NCBI RefSeq assembly: GCF_008831285.2
Contig: NC_045150.1
Span: forward strand, 17,188,600-17,252,599
DNA from: Nymphaea colorata
Taxonomy: Eukaryota > Streptophyta > Magnoliopsida > Nymphaeales > Nymphaeaceae
Direction of reading: 5' to 3'
DNA: 64,000 nt
Shown here: positions 1,134 to 63,065 of the stretch, piece after piece
Layout of the letters: every line of letters starts with the position of its first letter
How positions within the stretch are numbered: the stretch's first letter is position 1
Program-made: the position numbers and the translations under genes
The notes under the pieces: model-generated
Databases searched by the model: none
What the model saw: only the letters and a program-made list of their open reading frames with translations
Told to the model about the DNA's origin: nothing

Positions 1134-3410
1134 GTGTGGCGCACGGTCTCTCTCAGATAGAGAAGAGACAACCTTAGAAACCAATGTTTCAAGCAACCGT
1201 TTCACGACCCTAGGGACCACTACCATTTTATATCAAGAGCAATTACGGATTCAACCCATCAAAGAATCGTAATTATGTACAGGTATCTATACATTATATA
1301 ATACCCCATGCCATATAAAATGACGTAATATCTCAAAATGCAATCACTTAAGCGGTTATTTACATTATGACAGCCATAATATCTGAAATTTCTCATTGAC
1401 ATATGTCGGCCCACCAAATGATCCTTACAATCTCCCACTTGGGCCAAATATGTCTTTATACATTCAAACATTACATAAAACCTTAAGAGCTCATAAGTGC
1501 TATCTTATTAAACGTCATTTTTACCAATCTCGTCTATGATCATATCAACAAAGAACCAAAGCAGTTTTCGCTATATTAAAATTAGCTAAACCTTCAATGG
1601 TCACAAATATTTACACAATTAATGACCTAGATCTGATATGGATGTATTGCATGAGAATTACATGTAATGTGATTACAACATGTCTATTTTCAACTGGTCC
1701 TACTTTAAAAACCTTATGGAGATAAAAAACAAACACAAAATTGAATCAAAGATCTTTAAACTTTATTCTGCAGAAAACTGAATATGTGTCCATACATAAG
1801 AGCAAACAAAATACAAACTCCCACTAAACCAGCACATCATCCAAAGGTAAACCCCATACGAACAACATGTTCATGAAAGACCTTAGAAGTTAAACCCTTA
1901 GTAAGAAGATTTGTAATCATAAAGTTTGTCCCAATATGCTCTAAAGACACCTGACGATTCTGTATCCTATCTTTAACAGCCAAAAACTTAATGTCGATGT
2001 GCTTCGACTTTGACAAACTGCGGTTGTTATTAGAATACATGACTGCTGAATTATTGTCACACAATAACCTTAGTGGTCTCTCTACACCATTTATAATGCG
2101 CAGCCCCGTGACAAAATTCCGCAACCACAAACCATGATTGGATGCCTCGTAACGTGCTATGAATTCTGCTGCCGTGGTTGAAGTAGCTACAAGTGTCTAT
2201 TTAACACTTTTTTAGGATACCAATACAAATACATAGCCTGAAGTAGACTTGCGACTATCTTGGCACCTGGCAAAGTCAGAATCTGAATACCCAATGCTCT
2301 CCAACTGGTCTGACTTCTTATATGTGAGCATAAAATCTTTTGTTCTTTGTAAGTACCTCAATACTCATTTGGTTGCTTTCCAATGATTCATATCAGGATT
2401 ACTTAAGTATCTACCTAACATTCTAACGATAAATGTAATATCCGGACGAGTACAAACCTGAGCATACATAAGGCTTCCCACGACAGATGAATAGGGAATC
2501 CTTTCCATTTCTTTAGATTCGTGTTCACTTTTACGGTACTGTTTGAGACTAAACTTGTCCCCTTTAGCAACTGGAGTATCTCCTGCTTTACAATCTTTCA
2601 TGTCATATTGCTTAAGCACCTTATCAATGTAGGTCTTTTGTGATAATCCAAGAATACCCTGAGAATGATCTCAAAATATCTGGATCCCCAATATAAAAGA
2701 TGCATTATTAAGATCCTTCATGTCAAACTTTGTTGACAAAAATTTATTAGTTTCATGCAATATACTCACACCAGTACTTGCCAGCAATATATCATCGACA
2801 TACAAAACCAAAATGATAAATTTACCTCCACTGAACTTTTGGTATACATATTCATCAACCATATTAGTCTCGAAACCAAATGAAACTATAACTTCATGAA
2901 ATTGGGAAACTTACTTTAGCTCAAAGATGGATTTCTTGAGTTTGCAAACCATTTTCTTTGCATCCCCTAAAACAAAGTTTTCTGGTTGCACCATATATGT
3001 CATTTCATCAATGTCTCCATTTAGAAACAATGTCTTTACATCCATCTGATGCAGCTCAAAGTCAAAATGAGCCACAAGTGCCATTATGGTCCTGAACGAG
3101 TCTTTCGACGAAACTGGAGAGAAAGTCTCTATATAATCAATGCATTCCTTTTGAGTAAAGCCCTTTGTGACAAGATGTGCCTTATACCTTTCGATGTTTC
3201 CTAATGAATCCCCATTGGTTTTAAAAATTCATTTACAACCAATGGGTTTCACACTTTCAAGCAAGGGAACAACGTTGCATTCGTCATTATCCATCATGGA
3301 CTTTATTTCCTCATTCATGTCATCTATCCACTTATGAGATTTAGACTCCTTATCATTTGTTATAGGTTAATAGGATCATCCTCCATTAAGCCCATATCAA
3401 CATCATGTTC
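1134..3410 (-). mobile_element. Ty1/copia retrotransposon fragment (RT-RNase H-3' LTR)
   Basis: On the minus strand, decayed reverse transcriptase and RNase H can be read from about 3400 down to 1837: MDVKTLFLNGD near 3030, the catalytic YVDD within 2671-2862 (LVLYVDDILLAS), YSSVVGSLMYAQVCTRPDIT near 2440-2500, SDSDFARCQDSRKSTSGY near 2250, and the RNase H end CDNNSAVMYSNNNRS near 2040. A polypurine tract (AGTGGGAG, near 1820-1827) is followed by a putative 3' LTR from about 1815 down to about 1134; the LTR's outer end is uncertain. Gag, protease and integrase are missing and several stops break the frame (for example a Trp codon read as TGA near 3228). It is inserted in the CRK intron in the same orientation as the gene. 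Confidence 0.85.
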
Positions 3411-11534: not shown

Positions 11535-14500
11535 TGGCTCCAGGATATGCAATTTGGACCAAGAAATGTGCAGTATTCTGAAGTCGATCATCGTGTATCT
11601 GGACAGCCCGCGCAGTTTGCATCAGAGTATGCTCGGAGAGTCAAATCTTGGGATTTATAGAACTGGCTACCATATTTAGACATGCCTCAAACATATTGTA
11701 CAATGTGTTTCAAGATTTGAAAATGCTTCATCGTTGGGGCATGTATGAACTGACATGCAAAATTTACTGCATAGGAGAGATCTGGCCTTGTAAGGGTCAA
11801 GTATTGAAGTACACCTGCAAGACTTCGATATGCGGTAGCATTGGAATAAGGAGGATCAATTTCCTCAGGAGATTTGGAACCAACAGTAATAGGTGAGCTC
11901 ACTATTTTACATTGCTGCATTTGTGCTCTAGAAATAATGTCTTGAGCATATATAGACTGATGCATAAACAAGCCGTTGGAAGTCCTTGCAACTTGAATTC
12001 CCAAGAAGTAATTCAGATCACCTAGATCATTCATAGCAAATTGTTGTCTGACGGTGACGAGGAAGGACATTATAAATGAATGTGAATTTCCTGTAAGAAT
12101 GATATCATCAACATACAGTGATAGAATAGTGATAGATTTTTCTTGTCTACGAACAAATAGAGACGGATCGGTGACACAGGCAACAAAGTCCATAGGGAAT
12201 AGAAATTGAGCAAATCTGTCATACCAAGCCCGAGGTGCTTGTTTCAATCCATAAAGAGCTCAATTTAATCTACAAACATGATCTGGCTTGGATGGATCTT
12301 TAAATCGAGGAGGTTGCTCAATATAAACTAGCTCACGAAGATGCCCATTAAGAAACACATTTTTGACATCTAATTGTTTTAGAGGCCAATTAAATGTGAG
12401 GGGAAGACTAAGAACGATTCTTATAGTAGCAAATTTTACCACTTGTGAGAAGGTTTCCAAGAAGTCCAGACCTTGAACCTGGTTATATCCTTGTTGTACG
12501 AGACGCGTTTTGAGCCTTCCAAGCTGCCCATCTCCTTTGAGTTTACTTTTGAAGACCCAGCGGCTCCCGATCACCTGCATGTTTGGTGTACGAGGCACGA
12601 GATCCTAAGTATGGTTATCCTATAAAGCAACCATTTCATCTTTCATAGCCTGATACCAGCCTGGGTGTTTGAGGGCAAGGATGTAATGTGATGGTTCAAT
12701 TGGAATGGATGAAGTGGTAAAGGCATACTTAGGATTAGGTTTTATGATGCTGGATTTGGATCAAGTAGTCATAGAATGAGTTGAGGAGGAGGTAGTCGAT
12801 GGGACTAATGGTGAACTGGGTGGCTCGAGTTGGAGAGGTGATGTAGGGGCTGGTATAGGTGTAGGTGGCACAGGAGAAGGCTCTTCGACATTATGCATTT
12901 GGGCTAGATGTTGAGATTCAAGATGAGGCTCGTTAGACGAATCTGAAAAGGATACAAAGTCAGCATTAGAGGTTATGGGCCTAGGAGTTGGCATGGTGTT
13001 GTTGTACGAAAAATGGGTTTCATTAAACACGACATGACAGGAGATATATACACGTCCAGTGGGGGGATATAGACATCTATACCCTTTATGATGGTTGCTA
13101 TATCCAAGAAACACACAAGGTAACGACTTGGGCTGAAACTTATGATTTGTATATCCTCTAAGGTAAGGATAGCATCTAGATTCAAAAGCGCGAAGACAAG
13201 AATAATCAGGCCGTTCCTTGAAAAGCAACTCATACGGACTTTGCATGTGTAAAACTTGTGATGGAAGTCGGTTGATAAACCAAAATGCAGTGGAAAAAGC
13301 CTCAACCCAATATTGAGGTGGAAGATGACTATGAAATAACATAGTAAGACCTAATTCTATAACCGATCTATGTTTTCTTTGCACCATACGATTTTGCTCT
13401 GGCGTCTTAGGACAAGATTCTTAATGTTTGATGTTGTTCTCCTTTAAATAATTTGTAAGAACCAAACTGTTAAACTCGTCCCCTTCACCACTTTGAAAAA
13501 CTCTGAGCTTTGCATCAAATTGTGTTTGAATCATTTTGTGAAATTCAGGAAATTTGGCAAAAAAATCAGATTTCTGTTTTAGAGGATAAATCAATGAATA
13601 TTTACAGAATTGATCCATAAACAAATCATAATATTTTAGATTCTGGCAATTAGGAGCTGGTTCCCATAAGTCACAATGCGCTTTAGTAAATAAAGAATCA
13701 CAATCATCATCAATAGGAAGAAATGGAAGCCTACACGCCTTTCCCATCAGACAACTGGCACAAGTAAAAGGTTTAGGCAAATTTTTTGTCATTGTAATCA
13801 ACTTATTTGCACTCATAAACTCTAACACGTTATGATGTAGATCACCAAGTCGTCCATGCTACACTTCAAAAGGAGCTAATCGCAACCGTGTTGTAAAGAA
13901 CACATTCTTCAGTTTTGGCTTGAGAGCATATAGATCGCCTTCTCTAGACCCCATTTTAGTCACTTCGTTGGTCTCCTTGTCCTTAATAGCAAAGAAATTT
14001 GAAGAGAATTCAAACACATAAGGCACAGTAGAAGTGAGTTGACTAACTGAAATAAGATTTTTCTTGATGTCAGGCACAACAAGAACATTGTCGAGAGGAA
14101 TTGTGCAATTTCCCACATGGATATCGGCAACTCCAATATGTGTAATATCAAGATGTTGGCCATTTCCTACCATGATTTTGTCTGTTCCTTTATATGGAAT
14201 GCAACTTTTGAGTTTACCTGGATCATCGATTTTCATAGCAGAAAATGCCTGTGGCATATCACGTGGTTGATAAGCATGATCAAACCTGTGATAACATTTG
14301 AAAGCATTATGATTATTTAGGACACAAATCTGACATGGTACCTTGGATTTGTTCGTCTCTCCATTGGCTGATCCTTGCTGATTTCGAGTCTGAGTTCCTA
14401 GATTGAACCCACGTCCCTTGGAGTTGAACCCACTATTGTTGCTATTGGTATTGCGCCAACTATTGTTGTATCATTTTCTGTTGGTTTGATTGTTGGATTG

Positions 14501-15196
14501 TTGTGTGAAGAAGGCCATTTCGTTGTTCAACCTAGCCTCTCCTGCATGTAAGTCCTTCATTGTTTCATGCCCTTGAAGTAGTGACACTGCATCAAGATAT
14601 GAGGGAATCGGCGGCTTGAGGATAGAAGACATGAACGACTCATATCCTGGTCCGAGACCGTTAACAAGCCAAAAGACTTTGTCGTCATCCTCAAGAGGCT
14701 TCCCAATCACTACAAGTTCATCACATATAGCCTTGAAACCAGTAACATATTCAGTCACAGGTTTATCTTGTTTGCGGTGGAGTTGTAGTTTTCCTATCAG
14801 CATGATTTCTCTGTCCTTTGACTCACGAGCGAATGCTCTTGTCAAGGTTTTCCATACTTGTTCAAAGGTTTTAAGTCCCACGACAAGTCCAAGGAGTTCT
14901 TCTGTAAGAGACCCAATAAGCCATCCTCTTAGAAGATAGGCTGGTTTTTTCCAAGCAGAATAATCAGGGTTTGGTTGTCTCACGGTTTCACCATTTTCAA
15001 AGGATTCAATGGTAGAAGATGGCGTGAGAATCGTCCCATCAATAAACCCAAGCAGTTGGCTTTCTATGAGACCAAGAATTTGTGTTTTCCACAACAAGAA
15101 ATTCTTGTGTGATAGTTTGATTGAAACAAAAATAGCCACATTTACAGTGGAAGGATAGGGGTACTTAGCTACCGAATTTGTTGCGGATGTCAACAT
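11535..15196 (-). pseudogene. Copia Gag-Pol polyprotein, nine stop codons, no frameshift
   Basis: Gag lies at 15196-14471 (about 240 residues), then an Asn/Gly-rich linker and a CCHC knuckle (CQICVLNNHNAFKC, near 14290-14335). The protease region (14257-13859) has the flanking segments but lacks the catalytic D-S/T-G-A: SAMKIDDP runs straight into GKLKSC. The integrase has its first Asp (HCDLW), but the second motif reads FQSGEGDEF and the third QNRMVQRKH, so the other two catalytic acids are replaced. The C-terminal integrase region and RT follow (YVDD in LSLYVDDIILTG, near 12120), then RNase H (SDANCAGCPDTR, near 11600). Stops are at 14468, 13856, 13418, 12758, 12620, 12605, 12257, 11684 and 11588. 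The segments stay in one frame, so decay was by substitution. It cannot mobilise itself. Confidence 0.92.
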
Positions 15197-15465
15197 GTTG
15201 AAGACCTACGGCACTAGTAAATTTTGTATCTCTTCACATGATTGTCCAAAAAATTTGCAAATTTGTCCAAAAATAATAGACACTTGCCCGAATCCAATAA
15301 CACATAGCTCGACTGGTGAATTGCCTCTAGTAAAAAATGTGCCTCAAAGAAAGTCATGCCTGGAAAGTCTCTCTGGGGAGTTTGCATGGGGTTACCTCCT
15401 TCGATAGTAGTTGCAGCTCTTGTAAAATTCCGGCTTGTCACAATTTGCCGGTGAAAGCTTTTATA

Positions 15466-35361: not shown

Positions 35362-35815
35362 TATAACATACGTTTTTTTTTCCTAAATTCAAAGGAAGTA
35401 GACTTGTACGATGTGACAATAAAACATGTGAATTTATGTTTTAAAACATACTTCTTAACTTAAATTGAATCAATGGTTCTATGCAGACACGAAATTGTGA
35501 TCGTACAACTACATCTTGGAGTGCCAAATCCACGGAGCACTCTACTGTTATGGCTGTTCCTACAGCCCAATTTAATAACCCAGTTTTCAGCTGAGTTTTT
35601 TAAATATAAAACTTCTTCAAACTCGAATGCTACAAATTTATAGGTACGAAAATAAAGAGAGACTGGGTACATGAAAATTTAAAATTAGCAGTTTTCATTG
35701 TTCCGAATTTATCAGAAAATGAGGGTCATGAAATTCAATCCATGTCCAATAATTGTTTTTGGACAGCAGTTTTAGTATATTACCAGAAAGCAAAGGCATC
35801 CTGAGGCGGTTTCAA

Positions 35816-36407
35816 AGGAAATAAAGATTTTGATCACTAGTAGAAAGGTAGAAGCCTCCCAAGGGATTGGTGCTAAAATGCATAAATTACCAGAAATGAT
35901 TTCCGAAGAAAGCTGGAGCTTGTTTCTCGATGTGGCATCAAAACAAGAAAATGAATTGGTGAGTTACAATTTGAAAGGTACAAGGGAGAGGATAGTGGAC
36001 AACTGTGGTGGTTTGCCACTTGTGGTCCAGACGGTAGGGTCCTTAATGCGTACAAAAAAAATGACAAAAGCTGTTTGGGAAAGCATTGATAAGTGTGAGA
36101 TCTAGGAATCGAAGACGCCTGCCTCATGATCATCCTCTGAAATATGCAGTAGGTTGGTAGCATTCTTCTTGGTCTCATCCTGAGCTACGATGACTTGCCA
36201 TATTATTTGAAGAATTGTTTTGTATATTGCTGCATTTATCGAAAGGATTAAGTGACAGGAAGGCCTGAGTTGGTCATGCAATGGGTGGCACATGGATTGA
36301 TTGACCAAAAGAAAGGAGTTGTAGAATTGACAGCAGGCCAATGGATTGATGATTTGATAAGTCGGCGGATGATTGAAAAAACTGAAGGGGAACTAGAAAA
36401 ACAGTAA
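35816..36407 (+). pseudogene. NLR resistance-gene pseudogene, NB-ARC C-terminal part
   Basis: NLRs are intracellular immune receptors. Frame 1 reads KILITSRKVEASQGIG (sensor/RNBS-B type), EESWSLFLDVASKQ (RNBS-C), CGGLPLVVQTVGSLM (GLPL motif) and AVWESIDKCEI, then TAG at 36103-36105. In another frame the ARC2/winged-helix part follows from about 36155: LSYDDLPYYLKNCFVYCCIY, a TAA in place of Tyr in the KDY motif, then PELVMQWVAHGLID and WIDDLISRRMIEK. P-loop, kinase-2 and N-terminal domains are absent upstream. It stops about 45 bases before a copia LTR. The motif order identifies a CNL-type NLR; it is non-functional. Confidence 0.9.
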
Positions 36408-40329: not shown

Positions 40330-42560
40330 GTTAAAGGGGCTTCTTCCTCAGTGAATGAGTAATGCAATCTTTTGGTGCTTAAAGCCAGTTCAAGCACCTT
40401 GCAGCCATTCTTTTGGGTCTATCATAAATAAAATTATTCTCTTATCACTGTCTTTTTTACTGCTGGATGCTTTGGATTAAATTGATTTCATAACTGTCCT
40501 TTTTTTTGCTTTAGTTTGTACGAATACCCTTTGTCTATGGTAAAGAAAATGATGTTCTCGTCACTTTGTCTCTTTTATTGGTGGATATTATGGATTAAAT
40601 TCATATCACAACTGCCCTTTTTTGCTTTAGTTTATACAAATACCCTTGGCCTATCCTAATGAAAATGATGCTGAGAAAGAAGCGTTAAAGGGTCTTCTTC
40701 CTCAATGAATGAGCAATGCAATCTTTTAGTGCTTAAAGCCAGTTCAAGCATCTTGCAGCCATTCTTTTGGGTCTGTCGTAAATAAAATTATTCTCTTATC
40801 ACCGTCTTTTTGACTGCTGGATGCTTTGGATTAAATTCATTTCATAACTGTCTTCTTTTTGCTCTAGTTTGTATGAATACCCTTTGTCTATGGTAAACAA
40901 AATGATGTTCTCGTCACTGTGTCTATTACAGGTGGATATTATGGATTAAATTCGTATCATAACTGCCTTTTTATTTGCTGTAGTTTATACGAATAGCCTT
41001 GGTCTATCCTAATTAAAATGATGCTCTTGCCACCTCTTAGATTGAGCCTGTTGATTTCTTCGTTGAAGAGTTGGCTACCAAAGAGCCATGAACTCATGAT
41101 CACCACATGGATGCTCTCTAGTTTCCTTAAGAAAAGGAAAAGGTAGAAGGGCAACCATGTGCATGGAGTCCTTTTATTCGTTTTCTTTTCTCCTTTCTTT
41201 AATGGACAGGTAGATTTGATTCTCCATTTTCAAATGGGTTGGCCCTCCATGATGAACAGATTGTTATTTTTAGAGTGAGTGGGAGTTTTTGAGTGCACCC
41301 ATCAACATCATTGAATCAAAATCATTTCGGCTATAAAGCTAAAATGCCCCATTGTACTACCTCTACCACTTAAATGGTCTAAGTGTCTTCCACTCAAGGA
41401 CTGCCTAGCTCATTGATGCCCACTTCGTGCATGTTGACAGGTTGGAGCATGGTAGGCTTTGAACTAGCAATTTCAAAAATTCTGACTTCCTATTTGTGAT
41501 TCAGCAATTCCAAAGCTAGGTGATTCAATAAAAGGTCAAATTTAAATCAGTTATCCAAGCACTTAAATCGATCAGATATATAAAAAAAAGTCAAATTTAA
41601 ATTTGCATTTGCACTTACCGCACCCTCTAAGCATATGTGTCTGCATTTTACCACATTCCAACTTAGCTTTTAACAAATATTCAATCTAATTGAGATTCCT
41701 ATATTCAATTCAAGTAAATATCTTATAAATAATATCCATATTTTTGGAATTAAAGATAGTAATATATATATATATATACATATCATAATGTGGTTCTGAT
41801 TTTAGTTGTGTATTTAAAAGTTGGATTTGGATTTAGATGTAAAAATGAAACCAGAATTTGAATTGGACTTGAATTGGAATTGAAAAATTAAATTTGAATA
41901 TGATATGAAATTTTCTTTCATTCATATTCAAATCGAAACATATAAAGATCGAATAAAGGGGGTGTGATTCACCAACGATGTGTTCCTTCAGTGTATGCCC
42001 ATTCTTGCCCGATTCTGGAATTGGCCACCTTCTATGGGCAATAGAGTAGCCTGTAGGGGATAAGCATCAAATCTTTTACTGGTGGATATTATGGATTAAA
42101 TTCATATCACAACTGCCTTTTTTTCTTTAGTTTATGGGAAGGGTTAAAGGGGCTTCTTCCTCAATGAACGAGCAATACAATCTTTAGTGCTTAATGCCAG
42201 TTCAAGCACCTTGCAGCCATTCTTTTGGGTCTATCATAAATAAAATTATTCTCTTATCACTGTCTTTTTGACTGCTGGATGCTTCGGATTAAATTCATTT
42301 CATAACTGTCTTTTTTTGCTTTAGTTTTTGCAAATACCCTTTGTCTATCGTAGAGAAAATGATGTTCTCGTCACTTTATCTCTTTTACTGGTGGATATTA
42401 TGGATTAAATTCATATCACAACTGCCTTTTTTTTCTTTCGTTTATACAAATACCCTTGGTCTATCATAATGAAAATGATGCTCTTGTCACCATGTTTTAT
42501 TAACCGATTGGTGCTTTGGATTAAATTCATTTCACAACTGTGTTTTTTGCTTTAGTTTAT
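40330..42560. repeat. Tandem array of ~105-bp units with ~354-bp higher-order repeat
   Basis: A ~354-bp unit starts with GTTAAAGGGGCTTCTTCCTC at 40330, recurs at 40684 and again at 42143. Each contains a ~140-bp part (GCTTAAAGCCAGTTCAAGCA) and two ~105-bp sub-units built on GGATTAAATTCATNTCANAA, TTTGCTTTAGTTTATAC and AATGATGYTCTYGTCAC. Further sub-units lie near 42070, 42390 and 42500. Between 41040 and 42060 is unrelated sequence, including a (TA)n at 41762-41780. No coding potential. This is a minisatellite-like array. Confidence 0.85.
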
Positions 42561-43934
42561 ATAAATACCCTTAAGAGGCCGAAGCCCCTTTCTTTTTTCT
42601 TCAAACCCAGTCCTCAGTGGAGAGCAACACACATGTCAACTAAAGTGTCACACATCTATCTTTTGCAGTCTCTAGCAGTAGTACTCATAATAAATGAACT
42701 AACAGTGAACGTTCGTTGGTTCGACCAACTACGCTACACCGCTTGGGGCTTTCTCTATATGTGGGGACACAATGAATTGCAAATGGTCAATTTTGTATAG
42801 GATTATTACAAACAGACATCAAATGCAATTTAGCTATTCTACTTTGTGGAATCAAATTTAGATTGATCTAGTTAGATTCTGTTGTAAGAAGAAGAAAAAG
42901 AGAAGAAATATTCTAGATATAAACTACATATTAGATGAATAAGAGACCATATGGACTCACTGATCTCTTAACAACTTGATTTACATTCTCATTTAAGAGA
43001 TTCAATAATACCCATCATGTACATTATATTCTAATTTCTCTTATAACACTATGACATATTTTTTAAATTAATGGTATTCGATTTTTTTAACATTTTAAAG
43101 TTGAGAAAAATAATTAATGCTGAGACAAGATTAAAAATTTAAAACAAATAATTTCTTAAGAAAATGAATGACCGTCTGAAAAAAAAAAACAAAGGGGCAA
43201 ATATCAATTTGTTCTTAATAACTCGATTGGGATTTTAAGAGGAAAAGAAAATATGAGGCATCTAAAGATTGTAGGCTGAACCACATGCAAGTGGACAAAG
43301 GTATGACAAAAATGAAAAGAAAAAAAATTGACTTTGTCTTCATTTTCACATTCTATTCGCTTACATACCTCTCCATGAATGCACTTAGCCTATAATGTTT
43401 ATTTTTCTGATGGAAGAATGATTTTTTATTTTGGAGTTATTGTTGGATTTTGCTTCTTGCATCACTTGTTTTAAACCCTCAACTGCAGCCTTTTGGAAAA
43501 ATCAAGAAAGCCCACTTGAAAGGAAATAGCTGAAAAGACTAGTAACAACACCTAGCCCTGGATACCTAATTGGTCTGAGCCAACTCGTGGCTAGTGCCAC
43601 TTGATCATTCACTCTTGCTATTGTTAGGGAGACCTTTCACATCCCCCCACCCAGAGTGGGTGACGTGCAAGTTGCAACAGCACCACCACTTCTGCAAGGA
43701 TGATGGCACGAACAAGTTGTACTTCTAGTCAATGGTCAGATCGCAAAACTAGGATGGGCTAAATAAAATTTTGGATTTCGAAAAAGAAATCATGCATCCA
43801 AGCTTTTTACATAATACAATGAAAAATCAGACAAACGTGAGGAAGTGTTGGTGATGTAGAACTTTGTGGTTCGGGAATCATGGACCTTGCCAGCCTGTAG
43901 GATTAAAAAGAATCCTACATCCACTATCTTTCAC
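42561..43934. other. Spacer without recognised genes
   Basis: AT-rich; no coding or repeat features recognised up to the hAT-type terminus at 43935. Confidence 0.5.
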
Positions 43935-44118
43935 TAGGGGTGGGTATCGGGCCGGGCCGGCCCGACCCGTTTTGACCCGGCCCGGGTCGGCCCGTAGGGC
44001 CCAAGCCCGGGCCCGGCCCGGCCCGATAATATTGACGGGCCGGGTATCGGGCCGGGCCAGGTCCACCATACCAAGGCCCAGCCCGGGCCCGTTTTGCCTG
44101 GCCCTCGGGCCGGGGTCG
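43935..44118. repeat. hAT terminus and GGGCC-rich subterminal repeats
   Basis: Dense GGGCCGGGCCGG, CCCGACCCG and CGGGCCCGG words over about 180 bases, starting at TAGGGGTGGG. This is an island of very high GC content in an AT-rich region. ORFs rich in Arg, Gly and Pro across it on both strands are composition artefacts. Such repeats serve as transposase-binding sites in hAT elements. Confidence 0.75.
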
Positions 44119-44497
44119 GCCCTTGAAAAAAATGCGTTTTAAAAAAAAATACCAAAAAATAAAGAACATGAAAAAAAACAAGTATTACTATTATACGTGT
44201 TTTTTCATATTTTGCCGTATTATACCAGAAAAATTCATCTCTATATAATACCTATACACGATATAGGTAACAATGCCTGGAACTCTAGTCCTCATGTTCT
44301 GCTAAATCACATGGAAACAAAAAAGAACCATCTTAGTCCCACTCATGTCGTACCAACTCATTGTTGATAGCTGACCATAAGGGAGAGCCACATGATATGA
44401 ACAAAAAATTGGATTTTTTTGGGTACTGTACTGTTTCAATCCACTCTATGAATGCTTGCTTGCTCTGCCTCTAAGATACCATGGATCACAATGTGTC

Positions 44498-44909
44498 TCA
44501 GGTGGACATGGGCACGTTCTCCTCAAGAGCAAGAACTCCCGAAAGCACTTTCCCTTCCAAGAGCTCTAAGGAAACACCACCCCCTGTTGATATGTGGCTC
44601 ATCTTGTCGGCAACTCCTACTTTCTCCACAGCAGCGACAGAATCACCACCACCTATGATCGTCGTCACACCCTTCCCACTGAGATCAGCAAGCTTCTTAG
44701 CAATTGCCTAAATTTCAAATACAGTGTATAATTATCAAGAAACTAATAAATCAACCAAATCAAACACACACAAACATGCACATGCATGTGTGCACACAGA
44801 GATTGAAATAACATGTGCAATAATAATACATGACAAGAAAGAAGCAATATGACAACGTTGGTGATCACCATACCTCAGTTCCTACTGCAAACTTGTGCTC
44901 AGATAAAGG
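44498..44909 (-). pseudogene. PGK: Phosphoglycerate kinase fragment, last two exons
   Basis: Phosphoglycerate kinase catalyses ATP formation from 1,3-bisphosphoglycerate. The last exon, 44707-44498 (69 codons plus TGA), reads [31 protein letters not shown] and [18 protein letters not shown]: the C-terminal nucleotide-binding part with both glycine motifs. The exon 44909-44874 ends KFAVGTE at donor GAG/GTATGG; the last exon begins after TTTAG, giving FAVGTE-AIAKKLA as in PGK. One usual Ala is Val in STGGGVSLE. The 164-base intron is retained, so the copy was made from DNA, not mRNA. All upstream exons are missing: the segment just before KFAVGTE (PLSEH) already departs from PGK. The frame is intact but encodes under a fifth of the enzyme. 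Confidence 0.87.
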
Positions 44910-45582
44910 CTTTGCAAGTAATTGCCATTACTTGTGCAAAGAGGAATGACAATAACGTTCAGAAAAATCTATTCCAAGCTCAACGAAAGAATAAAATTTG
45001 CAGCAGACCTTGCGTGGGCTTGGAGATTTAGAAGAGGATGAGGTGGACCTTGCATGTCTAGGAGGTCCTCTCCTGGCCTGCCTCTGGTTGTATTATCCAT
45101 GAGAAGAAAGTCAGCAACAGTATGGATGTGAAGGAATCAAAACAAACTCATCTACTGCACAAAACGTGTACATCATTCAAACCATCATTACATGACATCG
45201 TATCAATTTTTGTACAAAATCTGTCCCTCTCTCTCTCTTGTTAAAGGTCCTCTACAAATGTGAAGAACTGTATAATATTTACTGAACAAACCCATAATAT
45301 GATCAACTGTCATAATGACAAATACTTTTCAACATAGTTTAAGTTTGACATGAACTTCAAGACTCTGCACAAGATATTATACAAAGATGCCACACCCATA
45401 TCTGAGAGCAACAAAAAAATGCAAAGAAATGATAACGTCAATAGAAAATTCATGGTTGTAGCTTGAAATGTCCATCTGCAATTTAACATGAAAAAGAAAT
45501 GTTAATAAAAATTAACATGTGCTTGTCAACATAGGATATGAAACATTAATTACAAAAATTACCATAATAAGCATGCACTCGA

Positions 45583-46180
45583 TTAACATTCCTCGTCATA
45601 ATGGTGCTCTGCATCATGAGAACTATAACAAAGACACTTATTAATTTAAGCACACTATTAAGTTAATATGTATAAACTATGAAGCATGAACATCTTACCT
45701 TTCACACAAGTTGTTTGCATCACGAATCCAACTTTGTGTGCAGATTAATGACTCTACATTTTCGGGAGTAGTTGAACATCGATAATCATTAATAATTCTT
45801 CCCGATGTAGTGAATGCAGATTCTGAAGCAACTGTAGATACAGGAATAGCTAACACATCTCGAGCCATCCTTGCTAGAATTTTGTATTTGCTTTCATTTG
45901 CCTTCCACCAAGATAATATGTTGAACTCTACAGTAGGTGATATTTCTTTCATTGGATCAAGCAAATATTTCTCTAGACCTATGTGAACCACTACAGGAGA
46001 TACAAAGTTGACATATGCTTTAAACCCATATCTAGACACACTTTTATACTCTTCCATTGTAATCATGGTACTAGTGGATGCATTGGCTCTTCCCATATTA
46101 CACGTGTCACTATCCTCATACATATTTCTGTACTCAGCATACAATTCATGAAGAGTGTTCTCTATAATTCCACATTTCAC
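45583..46180 (-). pseudogene. hAT transposase, C-terminal dimerisation region (two exons)
   Basis: Exon 46180-45699 reads EFNILSWWKANESKYKILAR, MARDVLAIPVSTVASESAFT and PENVESLICTQSWI: the conserved hAT C-terminal dimerisation domain. It ends at a donor GAAAG/GTAAGAT. Splicing to an acceptor TATAG at 45623 gives a short acidic tail (SSHDAEHHYDEEC) and TAA at 45583, a plausible natural C-terminus. Without splicing the frame stops just inside the intron. Upstream, a TGA six bases into the preceding frame (near 46196) follows LAFEAI, where Trp would fit, so the gene is probably broken. The DDE catalytic part is not present in the window. Confidence 0.85.
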
Positions 46181-46240
46181 TATTGCATCAGGTTTATCTC
46201 GTCAAATGGCTTCGAAAGCAAGCGGTAGAGACCAACTACA

Positions 46241-47319
46241 ACTATGAGAAAATTTGATGTGATAACAGGTAGATCGGATACAACAATATTAAATATGAAG
46301 CCCTTAGTACAAAAAACCCAAACAGTTGTAAGTCTAAAAAGAAACAAAATTAACAAAGAATAGCTGGCTTGAAAAGAAACAAATATATGCAGAACAGGAG
46401 CTAAAATAATAGTAGGTAAAAGAAAAAAGAAAAGAGAATAAGAAAATCAACCATTCTCAAACCATTAAGGCAAAGTTAGATTGAAATACTGGACCCCATC
46501 CATCCCATCTATTCATTTGGGCATTTGTTATTATTTATTTATTTTCTATTTAATTGTTTTCTTTATTCATTTTTGCCAACTTATAACTAATATTTATTTA
46601 ATATGCAACCCGAGCTTGGCCATTTTATCTGCGGATCAAAACAATAAAAGAAGAGGTCCACAAGAATGTTTGCAACGGCCCGACCGTTGTGGGTTTCATT
46701 TAACATGTCGATGAATGGAGACATCGTTAAATTTGAACCACCAAAGCATGTGGAGTCGTGGAGGCAGTAACTTCTGCGAATGGTGCGACTATAGAGCCGT
46801 TGGAAGCCAAATGGAGGCCATTTACCAATTTGATCAAATGTGCACCGGGTCTCTCTCTCTTGGAGATACCAGCAGGGCTTCAATACCATCCTTGCTTCTT
46901 TTACTTTGTTCACCATTTTGGTAGGCTTCAATCTTAGCGATTTGCAGGAGACAAGGTCGGTCATCTCTTGCTCTCTTATCCATTTGGCAATGTTGCGTTC
47001 TTTGTAGATATTTTGTTATATTATTCATAATCTCGTGGGAGAATTGAGGGATCCTGAGTTAGATTTCTTTCTTGGTGTTTCTAGATGTATTTCATGGGAG
47101 ATATACCAGCAGAGCGTAATGCACATCCTTGGTTCTCTTTTACTTCGTTCGTCTTGCTCATGGGTCGACTACAATAAAAGATAGCTTCTGCCACGATCAT
47201 TCCCATGGAAAGGTCTGTGGTGGACAAAATGGTAAAAGTTGTTCCTCTTTTAGCAGAATACTTTTACAAGATAATAAGAGGAGGCAAACTCAAGGGAGAG
47301 AGAGAGGGACCGGCAATCT
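46241..47319. other. Spacer with a small imperfect duplication
   Basis: No gene recognised. A ~55-base segment near 46861 (GGAGATACCAGCAGGGCTTC) recurs in modified form near 47097 (GGAGATATACCAGCAGAGCG), followed in both by ATCCTTG-TTCTTTTACTTYGTTC. Near 47208-47285 an open stretch reads VDKMVKVVPLLAEYFYKIIR, of unknown origin. Confidence 0.4.
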
Positions 47320-47631
47320 GTGATCACCTTTCCATGCTTCTCTCGTTCTGCAGCCTTCCAATATGACGAGGTTCTTGTCAATGAGAATGAGTACAAGAGA
47401 GCCAGGACTCTTTTCCTCCACTTGATTCCCTCATCTATCGATGAAGCAGAGAGCAAACACAGGCACCTCCGTTGCCCACTCGAACGCAATCTTATCCAAG
47501 ACCACGAGATCGGAAGCAATGTCGTTTTCTCACTTGTAGAGTTCTTCTCATCCAGCCTCAAGAATGCTGGTGGATTTATGCATGGGGCAAACATTAAGGA
47601 ATGGTTGAAGAGAGAAAGTTCCTCCACTTGA
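47320..47631 (+). CDS. Unidentified ORF (103 codons)
   Basis: Runs from ATG at 47320 to a stop at 47629-47631. It has protein-like composition without low complexity: NEYKRARTLFLHLIPSSID, KHRHLRCPLERNLIQDHEIG and NVVFSLVEFFSSSLKNAGG. No domain, signal peptide or membrane segment was recognised, and I cannot assign a family. It could be an exon of a host gene, as the first codons may be intronic (a TGCAG acceptor lies near 47350). Confidence 0.3.
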   Translation: MITFPCFSRSAAFQYDEVLVNENEYKRARTLFLHLIPSSIDEAESKHRHLRCPLERNLIQDHEIGSNVVFSLVEFFSSSLKNAGGFMHGANIKEWLKRESSST

Positions 47632-47731
47632 CGATTTATGTTGGATAGCGACAGATCTCTTTTGTGTTTGTGCATTTTTTTCCACATTGTGTCGCGTAAG
47701 CCTTGCTGTTTGTTGCTTCATGAGGTTATTC

Positions 47732-50700
47732 ATACCTACTGAATTGGTTAGATATTTCGTGCATGAATATGAAGTATGTGGCTGTCTTGGTGCAATTTTT
47801 AACTCACCAAAGCAAGAAGCTTCCTACTGAAATAATGGACTTATTATTAAGCACGTGGAGTGGAGCCAGAGGTAACTTGGGAAGATCAACAGAACATCAA
47901 TATATTCAATAATCAGTTTCATGAGCTTGAGCATGACATGAAAGCCGCCACGGTGTCACCTTTTTTTTTTCTTTTCCTTTTCGACTTAGTACTTTCGGTT
48001 TACTGTTAGATTTTGGTCCTCATGTTTTTTTAGAAATTATAGAATATGATAGTTGTCCTTGGTATGTACTTCTGGATTCCGGTTGTTGGCGGGTAAATCA
48101 AAGATATCCATGTTCTCCTGCATATGTTATTTCCTGAAGCTCCAGATGTTGTTAGTGGTAGTGGACACGAATCATGTTAAGCATGAAAGTGTATGCATTT
48201 AGGATAAAGATCATCGTATTTGAGCTTTTTCAAGAGAAGTTTGCATAGTGATGAGATTGCACAAAAAATCTTCTTACCCTGCACATAAAGAATGATAGCA
48301 TCAATTATCAATTTGTGATTACAAATACGACAGATGTACACAAAGGTCATACAGTCAAGTGTCTACAATTTGGTTTTAACAGCTGAAAGCCTGAAATGCA
48401 GTTGTCACATTTTCATGTCAACCACAAATTCTGTCTATCGAGAAAAGATGAAGAACTGAAAAGTTCAACAACTGAAAAGAATAATTATTTTCAGTGGAAG
48501 GGCAAAAATTGATAAACAAATGTCCACAGGCATATCGTTATTAGCATTCCCTGTGGCCCATTTGTGCTGATATGATAATGTTAGAGTGCATTCAACTCAC
48601 AAATCAGGAGCATGGTTGATTTTATGCCTTTAGTTACATCCAAAGGGAACAGATATTAAAGACTTTGCTTTGTGCTTCGGTCGACCGTATCTAATTTTTG
48701 AAGTCTTGAACATCAAATATGAAATGTAAATGTTCCTTCAGATCTATCTGAATAGTCCATGAAATAAAGGTCAATCAGACTATGAGGACCAAGAAATGCT
48801 CATCACTGCATTTTTGTGATGCTCAAGTATCTAGTTTAGGGCCCCATACATGATGACCCAATATACCATTTTTGCCACTAGCCATGGTTGTACATTCCTA
48901 AACCTTAACAACAAATATTCCTTGGAGATTTTTCGGAAATCCAAAAATATTCTGCTATATTAGAAAACAAGGTGTAAATTAAGCAATTTTTTTTCCTTTA
49001 CATGATAAAAGATGTTTTTCTATACATCATTGTTGTAGAGTCCACAAAATTTGATCTTAGATCACTTAGATTTCAAAATCCAAAGATATGACCCTCCCTC
49101 ATCTGACCTTGCATCAGCCCATTTGACAATGGAAAATACTAAAGTGAGGATCCAGCTTTTAATTCATATTATCAATGCATGCAGTCATGTACATAATATC
49201 ATTGTATGCAGTCATGATGATATACATTCATAACTAAACCAAAATTTGAGTGTGTTATCCTACTAGGATGTAATAAAGATCAGGCATTCTTATATATAAT
49301 GTATGCTAATTGTAACCAAGTCTCTCTATGACATATCTTGTTTAGTGGTGTGATCTACACATGCCAAATATGCGCTACTCTCTGATATGTTTTGTTTATG
49401 AGCAGACACAGAGGAGTGGTGCTTCATATTTTGCATGGAACATTGGCACTTTAAAAATATGTGACGTTAGAAATTTGCCAAGCATCAAGTATGGTTCACT
49501 TTTCAGAAAGCACAGCTATCAAAGAGGTGGCTAATTATATGTGAAGGAGAAAAGGACATTAAAGTACATTTTGAATAATGTAATTGGATTCAATATCTAA
49601 AAGGGCAGCAGCTTTGATAGTGAAGGCAGTATGGAATTTCTAAATCTATGAACTTCCCTTTATCATTTCCAAGCTTGTGCAGCAATCCTTTGGTCGATAA
49701 AGCTGTGGGCGTATGGATCTATGTGGATCTTGATAATAGTTTAGTCTTGTAGTTGATTTTCTCTTTATGGTATTGATGCTTTTTCTTTCTATCTTTCTTT
49801 CCTTTTTTTTTTGTGCAGGTTGGTATTTTCTTAGTCCCAGTTCCGTAATTACTCTGAGATTACCGTTTTCATCAAACTTTTATCTGGATCAATCTGACTC
49901 AAACCAATGGTTAGCATTTGAACCAGAGGATGATTTGCCTTTGTTATGGTGATCAGCTTTCTTTTTGTCTATGTTGATCCACTGTCACAAATATCGCAAC
50001 TTATATGAAAAAGACACATTAAATACGTGAAAAATAAGTCAGGCGTAGAAAGCAATACAATGCATCTTTTTTAAAAAATGTCAGAATATAAAAAACAAAA
50101 AAAACGTGAATTATACACGTTTTTTTAATATTTTTTATTAACTTCTTATTTATTTTATTTTTTATATTTTCAGGATTTTTTAAATATTTTAATTTTTTTA
50201 AAAAATCTTGATTTCCAAAATATTTCCGAAATATAGAACTTTGCGGTGTTATCCTTGAGAAATTCATGTTCACCTCATACTCTAATAATTTAATAATTTC
50301 AGATAAATATAATAATTTCAGGTAAATATATCATATTGCACTGACATCATGTTCATATTGCACTGACATCATGTTCACCTCATGCTCTTATCCAGCATTA
50401 CCAATCAACTTCTATTTGAAAATATACCAGCTATCAAGGTTATGTTAGTGCCGAACTATATTTTGTATGTGACTATGTATCAAATATGTTGTTGTTTAGC
50501 AGGGGGTTGTGGTCTACTCTTCAATTGAAGCTTGTAATGGATCCAATAAACCAGGCATTTTAGCATACTGAAAAAAATATTGCTGATATTGGTTTCAACC
50601 AAGCATTCTTAAAGACATTTTTTGTGCATTATGTTCTTTTCTCTAGTCCTTAGTGTTTTGCAATCAGTTTCACAAGGTCTATTTTATTTCCTGACAATTG

Positions 50701-53285
50701 TGCAAGAGATATTTGCTGTTTTGGCTGACACATTTCACAAGCTTGGTTTCAACTGCAAGTTTTGGTTCTACATGGGACTAATTTTCTGGATGAACCAATT
50801 GTCTCTCTTCTTGTTTCAGTTTCCAATAAATTGAAGTATTTTATAGTAAGTTTTGTCCTACAATTATTTTCTTCTAAAACTATTTCATGGAGCCTTGATT
50901 TTGGCTATAAGTACTCATTTTTTTCATCCAATCCTCCATTTTTTGTTTTGTTTGCAGGTGATCAAGATCTTAGCTTTCTTCATGATCCATGAATTGGATT
51001 GGGAATTTAGGAACTTATTCTGAGGTGAAGATTGCTTTATCTTTCTTTTTTGTTTTCTATGACAAAAAAATAGGAGCTTTCTGAGCAGGCCAAGATTTGC
51101 TTGCCCAAAAGGTTGATCATTTACAGTATTGTATGTCTCTACTAGTTATTTGTGTATAACGTGCAATATATTTCTATTTTATTTATGAAATTTCTCTTAC
51201 TGTACCAGAGATGATATGTTCTTTCACATACCCCTGTCCATCATTCTTAAACTTTTTGACTGTTTGGATACAAGTATTGCTACACTACATGAATATGGGA
51301 GAATTAGAATTGTTTCTAGGAGAAATAAGATGCTAAGCTGCTAATATGAGAAAATTAGAATTGTTTCACCATACTAGTCTCTGGGTTAAATTTTCTAGAT
51401 GTGTATGAACCTGCTATTTTTTTATTTATTTTCTCTATTTCGACCAGAAATGGCTTGGGGAGCATTTTGATAAGAAAGAAGCAGGCATGCTCAAAGGATA
51501 CTTATTTTCTATTATTCTTATGTATTTTTTTATAATTTTCAATTGTATAAACAATATCTTTTATAGTACAATACTTATTTCTATGTTCTCTCTCTCTCTC
51601 TACATATATATATATAATAAAAAAATGTAGAATAATTAAAATGGCCATGACTTTTCCATGGCTAATGTACAAGTAACAGTGGCTGTTGCAAATAACCGTA
51701 ACAGCCAAAACCATGGCTAGTGGCCTAGGTACATCATGGCTGGTTGATAAAATTGCCAGTCACAAAAAACGTGTTTTTTAAAAGAAAACAAATGGACATG
51801 ATAAATAAACCTTTTTTTTTTTCATTTTTTCCTTTTTCTTCATTTTTTTAATGTTTTAAACAGTTTTTTTTATTTTCTAATTTTATATGTTGCAAATCTA
51901 CTTATTTGTTGATGTTTTGTTTATAGTTTCTCACTTATTTTACTTTTTCTTAATTTGAGTTTTTTTTAATTTTTAAAAATTTGTTTATTTTTCTGGTTTT
52001 TTCTCCTTTATTTTCAAGCTCACCGTATTGTAGCCGAGAAAAAACTGCGGTTTAAAACTCAAGAATTTTTTTTGTGACTATGGTCAAAACCATGACAAAA
52101 AGTTAACAGCTACAAGGGTTTTTGCCAAAGCCAGGTTAGTTAACAACCACAGGGAAGGTCACGGCTGAAAATACTTTCAGCCACAGTTTCGGGGTTCATT
52201 TCATGGAAGCTCTCTTACGGCTTCAACAATGACTTTTTGGTTTTGTAATCGGTCTCCTTTTTCTATAGCTCTTGCTTTCCGGATCGCAATAATAAGGAAC
52301 TGAAATGGGTATGTCTGCTTAGCCGCAAGAGATGAAATTCTGCTTCATCATCTCAAACCACTCTATACAAGTCGCTTCACTTATGAGACGTCTAATCAAA
52401 GAGGAGGACAAAATGAATCTTCGGCGTGTCTTACTATTGTCACAAAAACTGCAATATTTTCAAGTTATTGTGACAATATCACCAAAAAACTGGTGAAATG
52501 AAAAAATGGGAATTTATCCCACATTTGAAATGAATACTATCGTACTATGATAAATTTTGTTAGATTATTCCTTTTTTAAATCAAAACATTATCTGGTACA
52601 TCTTAAGCTTTGTTTTCATTTTTGTCTGTTTCAGAATTTGAAGAACTATTTCTGAATATCATTTTTGTATGAAAATTAGCGGAAAGTCTATCTTGGACTC
52701 CTGAGATTTTCTAGAAAAAGATCCTTTTTAGCTGATTCCAGAGAAAATCTGTTGCCGATGAAAACATGGGAAATGGTATTTGTGACAATGATGTTATCTA
52801 GTAATTCCAGCTGCAAATGCTTAATTAGTTTTTAGTTTTTCATTTAAGAATGGTCATTTATTTCCAGCCGAGTTTGATGTTGGAATTTTCAAGGCTTGTA
52901 CAATTCTTTTTCCCTTTTAAATGTCTTTTTCATATGATTTACTTACTCCTTCACTCATCGGCAGCATCTAGTTTCGTTTGTCGACTGTTTCCATTGTTCC
53001 TGGCATCGCTGTTGATCCAACATGTGCCCAAACAAGCTCTGAAAGGTCAGATGTCATAATGCTGGATTAAGTTAATTATATTGTGAATATAAGTTTGTTC
53101 CACCATTTTTCCTTTATTTGGCTCTTTTTCCTTGTAATCCCCTGTACAAATTTTTAAGCCATTTACTCTGCTACTTCCCCTCTTCTTTATTGCAAATTCT
53201 TCAGCTTGAGCCATTTAGATTATTAATCCTTATTTTATTAAATTTGTTCATTGTGGTTCATTTATAAAAAACATTGCCCTTGTAG
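47732..53285. other. Long AT-rich spacer, no gene assembled
   Basis: No recognised coding sequence. Possible isolated exon-like pieces follow good acceptors: 49819-49952 (TTGTGCAG, then LDQSDSNQWLAFEPEDDLP) and 50960-50992. They may belong to the same gene as the ligase exon at 53286, but no continuity could be shown. A (CT)n(TA)n tract lies at 51590-51616. Confidence 0.4.
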
Positions 53286-58993: not shown

Positions 58994-59093
58994 NNNNNNN
59001 NNNNNNNNNNNNNNNNNNNNNNNNNNNNNNNNNNNNNNNNNNNNNNNNNNNNNNNNNNNNNNNNNNNNNNNNNNNNNNNNNNNNNNNNNNNNN
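58994..59093. other. Assembly gap (100 N)
   Basis: Exactly 100 N, the conventional size for a gap of unknown length. Left of it is a minus-strand copia fragment; right of it is a plus-strand gag. The missing sequence should contain at least the 5' LTR and gag start of the right-hand element. Confidence 0.99.
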
Positions 59094-60140: not shown

Positions 60141-61540
60141 TTGATTTTTCGATTTTCACCACATGATTTTGTTATTAAGGATCGACAGATGGGCAAGGTT
60201 CTACTTCAAGGACCAAAGATGCGTAACGGGCTCTATCCCATTAAGGCGACGATGTCAAACATGGATTCATCTTCAACCAAGGGAGCAGCATTTAGTTGCT
60301 GGTTTCCAGCAGGCGTCAATAAAATTTCAGCACCATTCGAACTATGGCATCGGCGTCTTGGTCATGCCAACAAGAAGATCGTTGGTTTTTTAAATTCCAG
60401 TAGATTCATATCAATAAATTCTCCTATTCCAAAAGGAGTATGTCAGTCTTGTCTTTTCGGAAAAGGCACATAAGCAACCCTTTCCAACTTCTGATTTTCA
60501 AGCCTCACGACCTCTTGAAATGCTTCACATGGATGTATGGGGACCTGCCCCATCACCTCTCGAGAGGGATTCAGGTTCTTTCTACTCATCGTTGATGATT
60601 ATTCTAAATTTTCATGGTTGTTTCCTCTCAAAGCTAAGTCTGAAGTTGTTCTATGTTTCAAGAATTTTAAGATCATGATTGAAAAGCAGTTAAATGCACA
60701 TATATGCTCCATTCATTCTGACAATGGCAAAGAATTCGTAAACTCTAACTTAGCCTCATTCTGTGATGAACATGGGATTATGCATCAATTTTCTTGCCTT
60801 ACACTCCTGAACAAAATGGAATTGTTGAACGAAAAAATCGTCATACCGTCGAAACGGGATTAAGTATGCTTTATGATGTTGGATTATCATATAGTTTCTG
60901 GGTTGACGCTTTACGCACTGCCATTGATATCATCAATCGTTTACCAACTTTCAAGTTGCAGCACAAATCGCCCTTTTATATGCTATTTCACAAGGATCCA
61001 GAATATGCACATTTGAGGGTTTTTGGAGCCACATGCTGTCCACTATTGATGCCTATGAATGATTCCAAATTTCAGCCCAAGACTACTTCATGCATTTTCT
61101 TGGGTTATGCTAGTCATCATAAAGGATATTTATGCTATGACAAGCGACATCATCGCATTCTTATATCTCGACATGTTGTCTTTGATGAAACTCATACAGA
61201 TGGATCTGATTGTTCTGCAGATTTCACAGATGAACTTGTTTCTCGTTGGCTACAAAATATGGCTGACGGCTCTCCTTCTAGTCCAGTTGATCCAATGTGT
61301 GATCCAACACAGTCCACGACAGCCTCCACTTATACTGTGTTACCTCTTCCTATGGCTACAACCTCTGCCACAACTTCACCTCGTGAGCACTCGGTCAATC
61401 GCTCAATGAGACTGAAAGTCCTACATCAGAGACACCATCTGTTCTGGATACACCAACTACGTCTGATTTGGCTATTGATGTTGCCACCACCAGTCTTGAT
61501 CCTCCCACTCGATCTCATCCAATGCTAACCCATTCTATGA
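60141..61540 (+). pseudogene. Copia integrase, frameshifted
   Basis: The HHCC zinc-binding part is intact (WHRRLGHANKK ... CQSCLFGK). Catalytic acids are all visible in different frames: MLHMDVWGP, SIHSDNGKEFVN and EQNGIVERKNR. Breaks occur at the A4 run 60461-60464, before 60570, and near CC 60797-60798. The C-terminal part reads HLRVFGATCCPLL and CIFLGYASHHKGY. Integrase inserts element cDNA into chromosomes; no catalytic residue is lost here, only reading frame. Confidence 0.87.
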
Positions 61541-61559
61541 CAGGTTCTTCAAAACCAAA

Positions 61560-63065
61560 AGTCTTTTAGCCATCACAGCACAAGAGGAACCAGGGAATTT
61601 TAAAGAAGCCATTCAATCATCGTGCTGGCGTAATGCTATGCAAAATGAGTTCTCAGCATTGCAGAAAAACAAAACCTGGCATCTTGTACCCCCACAGCCG
61701 AATCTCCATGTCATTAGTTCCAAATGGGTTTACAAAATCAAACGTCACCCTAATGGTTCCATTGCACAACATAAAGATCGACTTGTCGCTCGGTGTTTTC
61801 TTCAAACAGCTGGCATTGACTATAAAGAAACTTTTAGTCCGACTGTCAAACCCACCACTATCAGAGTGTCACTATCTCTAGCTGCCCACTTTGGTTGGTC
61901 TTTACGACAACTTGATTTTGACAATGCGTTTCTTAATGGGTATCTTTCTGAAGATGTCTATATGGCTCAACCTGAGGGTTTTCAAGATAGCACCTTTCCT
62001 CATTATGTCTGCGAATTAGATAAAGCACTCTATGGGCTCAAGCAGGCTCCACGCGCATGATATCTTCGCCTGAGTTGCTTTCTTACTGATCTTGGTTTTG
62101 TTGTGTCTCAATCTGATGCATCCTTGTTTATTTACTCTCGTGATGGGCATCAACTTTATTTGATTGTTTATGTTGATGATTTGATAATTACCGGATCTGC
62201 ACTAGCCCTCATTTCTCGTATCATTACCCAGCTTGGTTCCACTTTTTTCGGTTAAAGATCTTGTCCCTCTCACATATTTTCTAGGCATTGAAGTCAAGCG
62301 ACAACCCGGTGAGATATACCAGTGCCAAGAAAATTACAATAATAGCATTCTTCGCAAAGCTAAAATGGATAATGCCAAACCCACAACGTCTCCCATGGTG
62401 ACTACCAAAAATGTCACAGTTGCTGAAGAATCCTCCTTTTTCGATCCCACACTATATAGGAGTGTGATAGGTGCATTACATTATGTTTCGCTGACACGAC
62501 CTGATATTACTTTTGTGGTAAATCGTGCCTATCAGTTCATACACTCTCCCAAAGTGGCTCATTGGACAATGGTTAAAAGAATACTTCGGTATTTAAAAGG
62601 CACCAGTCATTATGTTCTTCGCTTGACTCAATCGCCTTCATTGCAATTAAGCATCTATGCAGACACAGACTGGGCTGGAAGTCCGGAAGACCGAAAGTCG
62701 ACTGGTGGATTTGTTGCTCTCTTAGGAAATAATGTTATCTCATGGGCCTCCAGAAAACAAAGGACTGTAGCTCGATCCAGCACTGAAGCTGAATACAAAT
62801 CTCTAGCCTGTGCTGCTGCAGAAATACTATGGTTAAAATCGTTTCTCAAAGAATTGAAGATCTCCTCACAAGATACACCAGCCCTATGGTGCGATAATAT
62901 AGGTGCTTTATACCTAGCAGCAAATCCAGTCTTTCATGCTCGTACCAAACATGTTGAAATTGATTTCACTTCGTTAGAGATCATATCAATAAGGGAGAGA
63001 TACAAGTGAACTTCATTCGAACCAAAGAAAAAATGGCAGATGGGATGACAAAGGCTCTTGGAGAC
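61560..63065 (+). pseudogene. Copia reverse transcriptase and RNase H, frameshifted
   Basis: RT: HVISSKWVYKIKRHPNGSIA, RQLDFDNAFLNGYLSEDV, ALYGLKQAPRA, then TGA at 62058-62060 where Trp fits. The catalytic YVDD is at 62169-62180 (LIVYVDDLIITG). A T6 run (62243-62248) shifts the frame. The polymerase end and RNase H follow: YADTDWAGSPEDRKSTGGF, ARSSTEAEYKSLACAAAEI and LWCDNIGALYLAANP. A base is missing near 62967 before the last ~30 codons (KEKMADGMTKAL). Everything else needed for activity is present. Confidence 0.9.

Follow-up and report, generated by a model that had tools for sequence, protein, structure and literature searches.

How did a piece of a phosphoglycerate kinase (PGK) gene come to lie between the transposase and the terminus of a hAT transposon? 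The locus that raises this question belongs to a 64,000-nucleotide stretch of plant DNA, hereafter the window (C13:17188600-17252599), and the assembly that contains it (407.8 Mb, 783 contigs) was searched for relatives. An earlier note, made from the sequence alone, had proposed that the transposon captured PGK exons. Comparison across the genome points, with high probability, to a modular hAT family in which host-gene pieces have repeatedly taken the place of the DNA that separates the transposase core from the GGGCC-rich ends. The features of the window copy are collected in Table 1.

Table 1. Features of the hAT copy and its captured DNA, in window positions.
Feature	Position	Strand	Basis
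Ty1-copia LTR flank, 37 bp, the last 8 being the target duplication TCTTTCAC (43927-43934)	43898..43934	.	comparison with C463
hAT 3' TIR (43935-43953) and GGGCC-rich subterminal block	43935..44133	-	genome comparison, end scan
captured PGK piece, whole	44134..44896	-	absent from L019 and L020, which part exactly at 44897
PGK 3' UTR and/or downstream DNA (inferred)	44134..44497	-	position between PGK stop and terminus boundary
PGK last exon, 69 codons and stop	44498..44707	-	Pfam PGK; C11 PGK gene stops at the same codon
retained PGK intron, GT-AG	44708..44873	-	read from sequence
PGK penultimate exon, 3' 23 nt (ACAAG, then codons FAVGTE)	44874..44896	-	C11 PGK match
remnant of earlier captured ABC-transporter (ABC2_membrane) piece, 87 bp	44897..44983	-	96.6% to L047 587-673
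hAT transposase C-terminus, cut off at 46199; predicted intron 45698-45623	45583..46199	-	Pfam Dimer_Tnp_hAT

The two hAT parts recognized at first sight were both confirmed. Translation of 45695-46201(-) matched the Pfam dimerisation domain Dimer_Tnp_hAT (PF05699, E 3.5e-29), and the predicted GT-AG intron leads, as read by eye, into a short last exon with its stop at 45585-45583. The terminus at 43935 reads inward as TAGGGGTGGGTATCGGGCC; the genome contains 52 exact copies of this 19-mer and none of its reversed control. On the other side, hAT homology ends at 46197-46199 in the relatives that extend that far, except in the allele-like contig C581. Among the TIR-like and duplication-like sites within the window, none was convincing as a second terminus, and the copy has a single element end. 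C581, apparently the other haplotype, is collinear with the window at ~98% over 42000-52000, except for ~490 additional bases. These bases, missing from the window at 48559-48564, represent a polymorphic insertion or deletion.

Between these two hAT parts, the translated last exon matched Pfam PGK (PF00162) with an E value of 3.1e-16 over profile positions 328-379 of 379, and PDB PGK chains matched as well. The stop-free frame of 69 codons and the kept GT-AG intron were as the earlier note had described them. Of its two exons, the last was upheld, and the upstream one was cut back to 44896-44874 (23 nt), as 44909-44897 proved to be ABC-transporter remnant. PGK homology starts at ACAAG-TTTGCAGTAGGAACTGAG, the point where the relatives L019 and L020 diverge, and a 28-bp match (92.9%) connects the region of the penultimate-exon piece with a PGK gene on C11. 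Positions 44260-44497, searched as part of a genome query, gave no separate match. Since the intron is kept, the piece was copied from genomic DNA, and since the transposase stop precedes it, a fusion protein is not expected. In the genome search, the piece was found at an identity of at least 96% only in the window, C581 and C463. The captured exons of window and C463 differ by a dN of 0.026 and a dS of 0.019, with four codons changed; these values, which have little power, give no sign of selection on the captured PGK.

The relative on C463 preserves the element from end to end. It measures 5903 bp, with TAGGCCTGGGCGTCGGGCC as its 5' end and a 3' end that the window copy also has, and its two TIRs are equal at 15 of 19 positions by eye (TAGGCCTGGGCGTCGGGCC against TAGGGGTGGGTATCGGGCC). 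The bases outside the element, tgtgaaaa and gtgaaaga, are read as a single 8-bp target duplication of which one copy is missing a base. The same PGK piece, unspliced and in transposase sense, lies between the transposase, whose frames are broken, and the 3' terminus. Its enclosure by TIRs and target duplication bears out the central claim of capture from genomic DNA, and supports the conclusion that PGK was copied into the hAT between transposase and 3' terminus in the same polarity. The element lies within one LTR of a Ty1-copia retrotransposon (the two LTRs are 93.95% identical over 430 bp), which is itself inserted in a paralog of the window's resistance-gene cluster (~37.5-43.9 kb; the window's NB-ARC lies at 35776-36102). 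The 5' module of the C463 element matches places on C3, C4, C7, C10 and C13, plus shorter ones elsewhere. The match at C13:15961958 adjoins another family terminus, at C13:15961888, so some of the matches belong to the family itself and are not donors; to the pieces matching C3 and C7, neither a gene nor a strand could be assigned.

Several features of the surrounding window were also recorded. Open frames at 11690-15205(-), 60141-63006(+) and 1840-3228(-) resemble Ty1-copia polyproteins by eye, and parts of 11540-15173 show 65-76% similarity to the copia element around the C463 hAT. An assembly gap of 100 N (58994-59093) lies beside copia-like sequence, and blocks of ~115-bp repeated units, at 40416-41034 and 42072-42572, occur in C463 too.

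The outer flank shows how the window copy arose. Over these 37 bp, target duplication included, the window is identical to C463 at 36 positions and to C581 at 35. Within the element, window and C463 differ by 0-3% per counted segment, except in the GGGCC block (8%). Outside it, the paralogous C463 sequence tracks the window to 43900 and then continues without the hAT, with TAG shared at the junction. Because the copied stretch includes 37 bp of the LTR in which the element sat, the window copy is not an independent insertion: 43898-46199 is a fragment, 2.3 kb long, that derives from a C463-like copy. The hAT 3' end seen at the outset is genuine, but the element behind it is only a fragment, and the PGK cassette is known from one insertion, that of C463, with its window/C581 derivative.

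Other members of the family suggest what may have occupied the same place before. L019 (C1:22.74 Mb) and L020 (C1:35.28 Mb) match the window at 94-95% over 44897-46199 and match again in the terminal block, and other DNA stands where the window has 44134-44896. Of the further family members, C463 and C581 carry PGK and L019 and L020 do not; in the latter two, the DNA at this place consists of two pieces of an ABC-transporter gene (donor L047, Pfam ABC2_membrane), at 94-96% and 90-92%. Identity to this ABCG donor is 90-96% overall, and a third copy of the cassette was matched in the search at C5:14.84 Mb (94%). The ABCG remnant of 87 bp is kept beside PGK in both the window and C463, and the junction between the two pieces has no clear overlap. 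The simplest order suggested by this arrangement is that ABCG was captured first and PGK later. In L019, the transposase frame is open over 614 aa, and a zinc-finger-like C-x2-C...H stretch is visible by eye in the frames of L019 and C463.

Across the family, a further 3' region recurs: eight places match more than 70% of the query, and a ninth matches half of it. The compared copies L024, L025, L032 and L033 are alike over all or most of this region, and their form is taken as the native one. The distance from transposase stop to terminus, judged unusually long in the earlier note at 1.65 kb, is indeed longer than the ~0.87 kb estimated from coordinates in native L024. Copies that part from the window between 45583 and 44909, which the earlier note had regarded as evidence against capture, do exist; they do not refute it, as other DNA lies there, in most types host-gene pieces. 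The shared cassette of L026 and L027 comprises pieces of an RRM gene (89%) and a cytochrome-b5 gene (92-94%), the latter twice, and that of L021 and L023 comprises three pieces of one HGSNAT-like locus (92-97%). L022 combines the final part of an EDR2-like frame (96%) with DNA from behind a receptor-kinase stop (88-89%) and an RPN10-like piece (90%). Pieces are nested in these cassettes, RPN10 inside the receptor-kinase piece and cytochrome b5 inside the RRM piece. In addition, the 5' side between TIR and transposase has been exchanged among copies. In L034 (C6:23857001-23867000), parting from other copies occurs at 45464, and no GGGCC terminus was found in the stretch examined.

In a tree of 15 rows over a shared 736 bp, two pairs were firm, L026/L027 and window/C581, and a third, L021/L023, had moderate support. 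C463, L019 and L020 had no resolved place within a clade of nine, and C463 was not grouped with the window; hence the evidence for the order of capture, and for kinship between window and C463, is not the tree but the PGK piece, the 87 bp and the LTR flank that these two share. Of the 52 exact 3' termini, six fall in examined loci (window, C581, C463, L019, L023 and a second one in L024). Four of the other 46 were sampled, and all four have a 5'-TIR-like site (at most 4 mismatches) within 1.3 kb and look like short non-autonomous elements. One of the four, the short two-TIR element L051 (C1:2063010-2064309), carries an acid-phosphatase piece (PF03767) interrupted by a piece matching C13:1.607 Mb, and has a second copy at C4:6.604 Mb (92%). 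Another, L054 (C10:16764785-16766084), carries a GC-rich open stretch beginning with ATG, for which the donor search returned no host donor, only three family-like copies and weak matches of low-complexity type.

Ends were scanned in 13 copies. Flank pairs agreed at 8/8 positions in L023, L024, L026 and L027 and at 7/8 in L019, with one base missing in C463; the ends of L025 do not match. A single end was found in four copies (3' in L020, L021 and L022, 5' in L034) and none in L032 and L033. A C-terminal dimerisation domain, 8-bp target duplications and short TIRs identify the family as hAT, and the host-gene DNA between the hAT ends of C463 gives that copy the form of a Pack-hAT. Pack-MULEs have long TIRs and duplications of 9-11 bp, and are excluded by the short TIRs, the 8-bp duplications and the hAT domain. 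Helitrons, which have neither TIRs nor target duplications, are excluded by the presence of both.

Whether captured DNA travels with the element can be judged from the same flanks. L026 and L027 have one cassette in common, yet each is flanked by its own 8/8 target duplication, which indicates that cassettes moved after capture; L021 and L023 likewise share a cassette, L023 with an 8/8 duplication and L021 seen at one end. For PGK itself, it could be argued that the piece entered the C463 element only after its last jump, in an immobile copy, and was never mobile cargo. The existence of one PGK insertion site and a derivative agrees with this, and the movement of two other cassettes of the same kind speaks against it. 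The entry of PGK before the split of window and C463 does not decide the matter, as that split is a copying event. We regard an entry into an immobile element as unlikely, though it keeps appreciable weight.

The way in which the pieces were joined points to repair. With the exception of PGK, the donor genes are still in place, and introns are retained. The junctions examined are not splice sites and show, by eye, 0-6 shared bp or a few extra bases. Together with the nesting, these properties fit gap filling by template switching, which is discussed for hAT and other TIR elements (PMC8277862) and suggested in work on maize elements (PMC3260210). Capture through RNA splicing was considered, as the HGSNAT, ABCG and RRM cassettes skip donor DNA, and was rejected on the HGSNAT and RRM breaks, which lack GT-AG. 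We infer the following course. The starting event would be a double-strand break, within the element or next to it, that follows excision or falls in the repeat-rich subterminal block. During its repair by synthesis-dependent strand annealing, the nascent strand would jump to an unrelated gene with little or no microhomology, copy some 40-760 bp, introns included, and return to the element. In this lineage, the ABC-transporter piece would have entered first, and the PGK piece would later have displaced it except for 87 bp. The element with PGK lies in the copia LTR within the resistance-gene cluster (C463), and a stretch of 2.3 kb, from 37 bp of LTR to mid-transposase, was later copied into the window locus.

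A route without template switching has been proposed for Pack-TYPE superfamilies including hAT, in which two neighbouring elements are mobilised jointly with the DNA between them (PMC8903248). Second terminus-like sites do exist near some copies, with 3' ends at 5390 and 6351 in L021 and at 5400 and 7837 in L024. However, nested pieces are followed by a return near the point of leaving (receptor kinase, 917 to 925; RRM, 483 to 472), and PGK replaced part of an older piece. Furthermore, no TAGGGGTG-like site (at most 1 mismatch) is present inside 44134-44896, and the identified donors of transposase-bearing copies lie on contigs other than those of the examined copies. Joint mobilisation fits the nesting less well than template switching does, and we consider it improbable.

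For PGK, a near-identical donor was not found in the assembly. The gene nearest to the captured exon, at C11:5244086-5247003, is 82.7% identical to the window and 84.2% to C463, and the C463 exon differs from it by a dN of 0.095 and a dS of 0.92. No similarity of intron or UTR was found between this gene and the captured piece, and it was rejected as donor on the dS and the unrelated intron. The genome holds six DNA matches to the PGK piece, namely the copies in the window, C581 and C463 plus three PGK genes (75-83%), and among 26 PGK profile matches no further last exon was seen. On the simplest reading of the sequence distances, PGK would have been captured between the split of C463 and L019 (~5%) and that of window and C463 (~3%). 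Timing and distance together indicate that the donor would be an old paralog that was present until recently and is now lost, unassembled or foreign. On C14, at 2140902-2142096 and 2145969-2148498, three equal-scoring PGK profile matches occur twice, 5.07 kb apart; this suggests a recent tandem duplication, of which only the second unit has C-terminal exons listed. A source outside the lineage, with the element or cassette brought in by hybridisation or horizontal transfer, would explain the missing donor and the high dS, given that donors at 88-97% exist for the other cassettes. Both are explained equally well by a PGK paralog that is lost, haplotype-specific or unassembled, and outside the PGK piece the element is native (95% to L019), so that a foreign origin appears very improbable.

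The weakest reading, a simple insertion of a hAT into or beside a host PGK gene or pseudogene, would account for the common polarity of PGK and transposase and for the kept intron, but is hardly credible, since PGK lies inside the C463 TIRs, relatives hold different host genes at the same internal place, and the adjoining PGK gene that the earlier note had named as its mark is absent, with no other PGK exon found nearby and the PF00162 matches on C13, C581 and C463 being the piece itself only.

The orientation of the captured pieces deserves separate mention. In transposase-bearing copies, all eight strand-assignable donor loci are sense to the transposase. The gene strand is firm for six (PGK, ABCG, RRM, cytochrome b5, EDR2-like and RPN10-like); for the receptor-kinase and HGSNAT-like loci, whose pieces look non-coding, sense was inferred from the neighbouring exon. 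Two-sided binomial tests gave p = 0.0078 for 8/8 and p = 0.031 for the six firm loci, counts in which pieces of one cassette may not be independent and which concern a pattern noticed after the fact. In the non-autonomous L051, the acid-phosphatase piece is antisense and the second piece cannot be placed, which brings the total to 8/9 sense (0.039, by hand). The sense-only pattern is a lead only. It could reflect a filter downstream of the transposase: a transposase transcript with antisense pieces would shut down essential host genes, or its transposase RNA would be spoilt, and elements without transposase would be free of this filter. Such a filter, combined with a PGK piece that is perhaps the only remnant of a lost paralog, is a speculative and rather doubtful proposal. 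In the literature searched, no mention was met of a rule that hAT cargo is sense-only, which is no proof of absence. If the rule held over many cassettes, selection on the transposase transcript would shape which host pieces can be kept, and captured pieces that have no donor may record genes lost from the genome.

Gene capture by hAT elements is already in print for grapevine, maize and animals, in the accounts cited here, and it is less unusual than the earlier note suggested. Likened by description and not by sequence, a close counterpart is Hatvine-6 of grapevine, in which transposase and TIRs are common, the rest is often unique or found in few copies, and host pieces are genic (exon, intron) and non-genic (Benjak et al., 2008; PMC2528002); in the present family, donors, nesting and uniform polarity were worked out. 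The maize elements Ds2 and Ds-l4 also combine hAT termini with genomic gene pieces that include introns, some with donors absent from the reference. The elements described (two Ds2, nine Ds-l4; PMC3260210) are non-autonomous and of Ds type, whereas the pieces reported here lie beside transposase genes. Pack-TYPE elements of maize and rice, including Pack-hATs, share TIRs, host coding DNA and 8-nt duplications, and L051, with two TIRs and a host piece, is Pack-hAT-like when compared by form. Pack-hATs are defined there (PMC8903248) as non-autonomous, whereas L019 keeps its 614-aa frame, the frames of C463 being broken. Animal Pack-TIRs, 208 of 370 of which belong to hAT (PMC8277862), are alike in gap filling and in brief microhomologies, whose median in the animal elements that have them is 2 bp. 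They are described as mostly single-copy, whereas several cassettes here are multicopy and one was replaced by another. Against these systems, the present family is documented in unusual detail, in a plant genome that allows hAT capture to be followed stepwise through donors, nesting, replacement and movement after capture.
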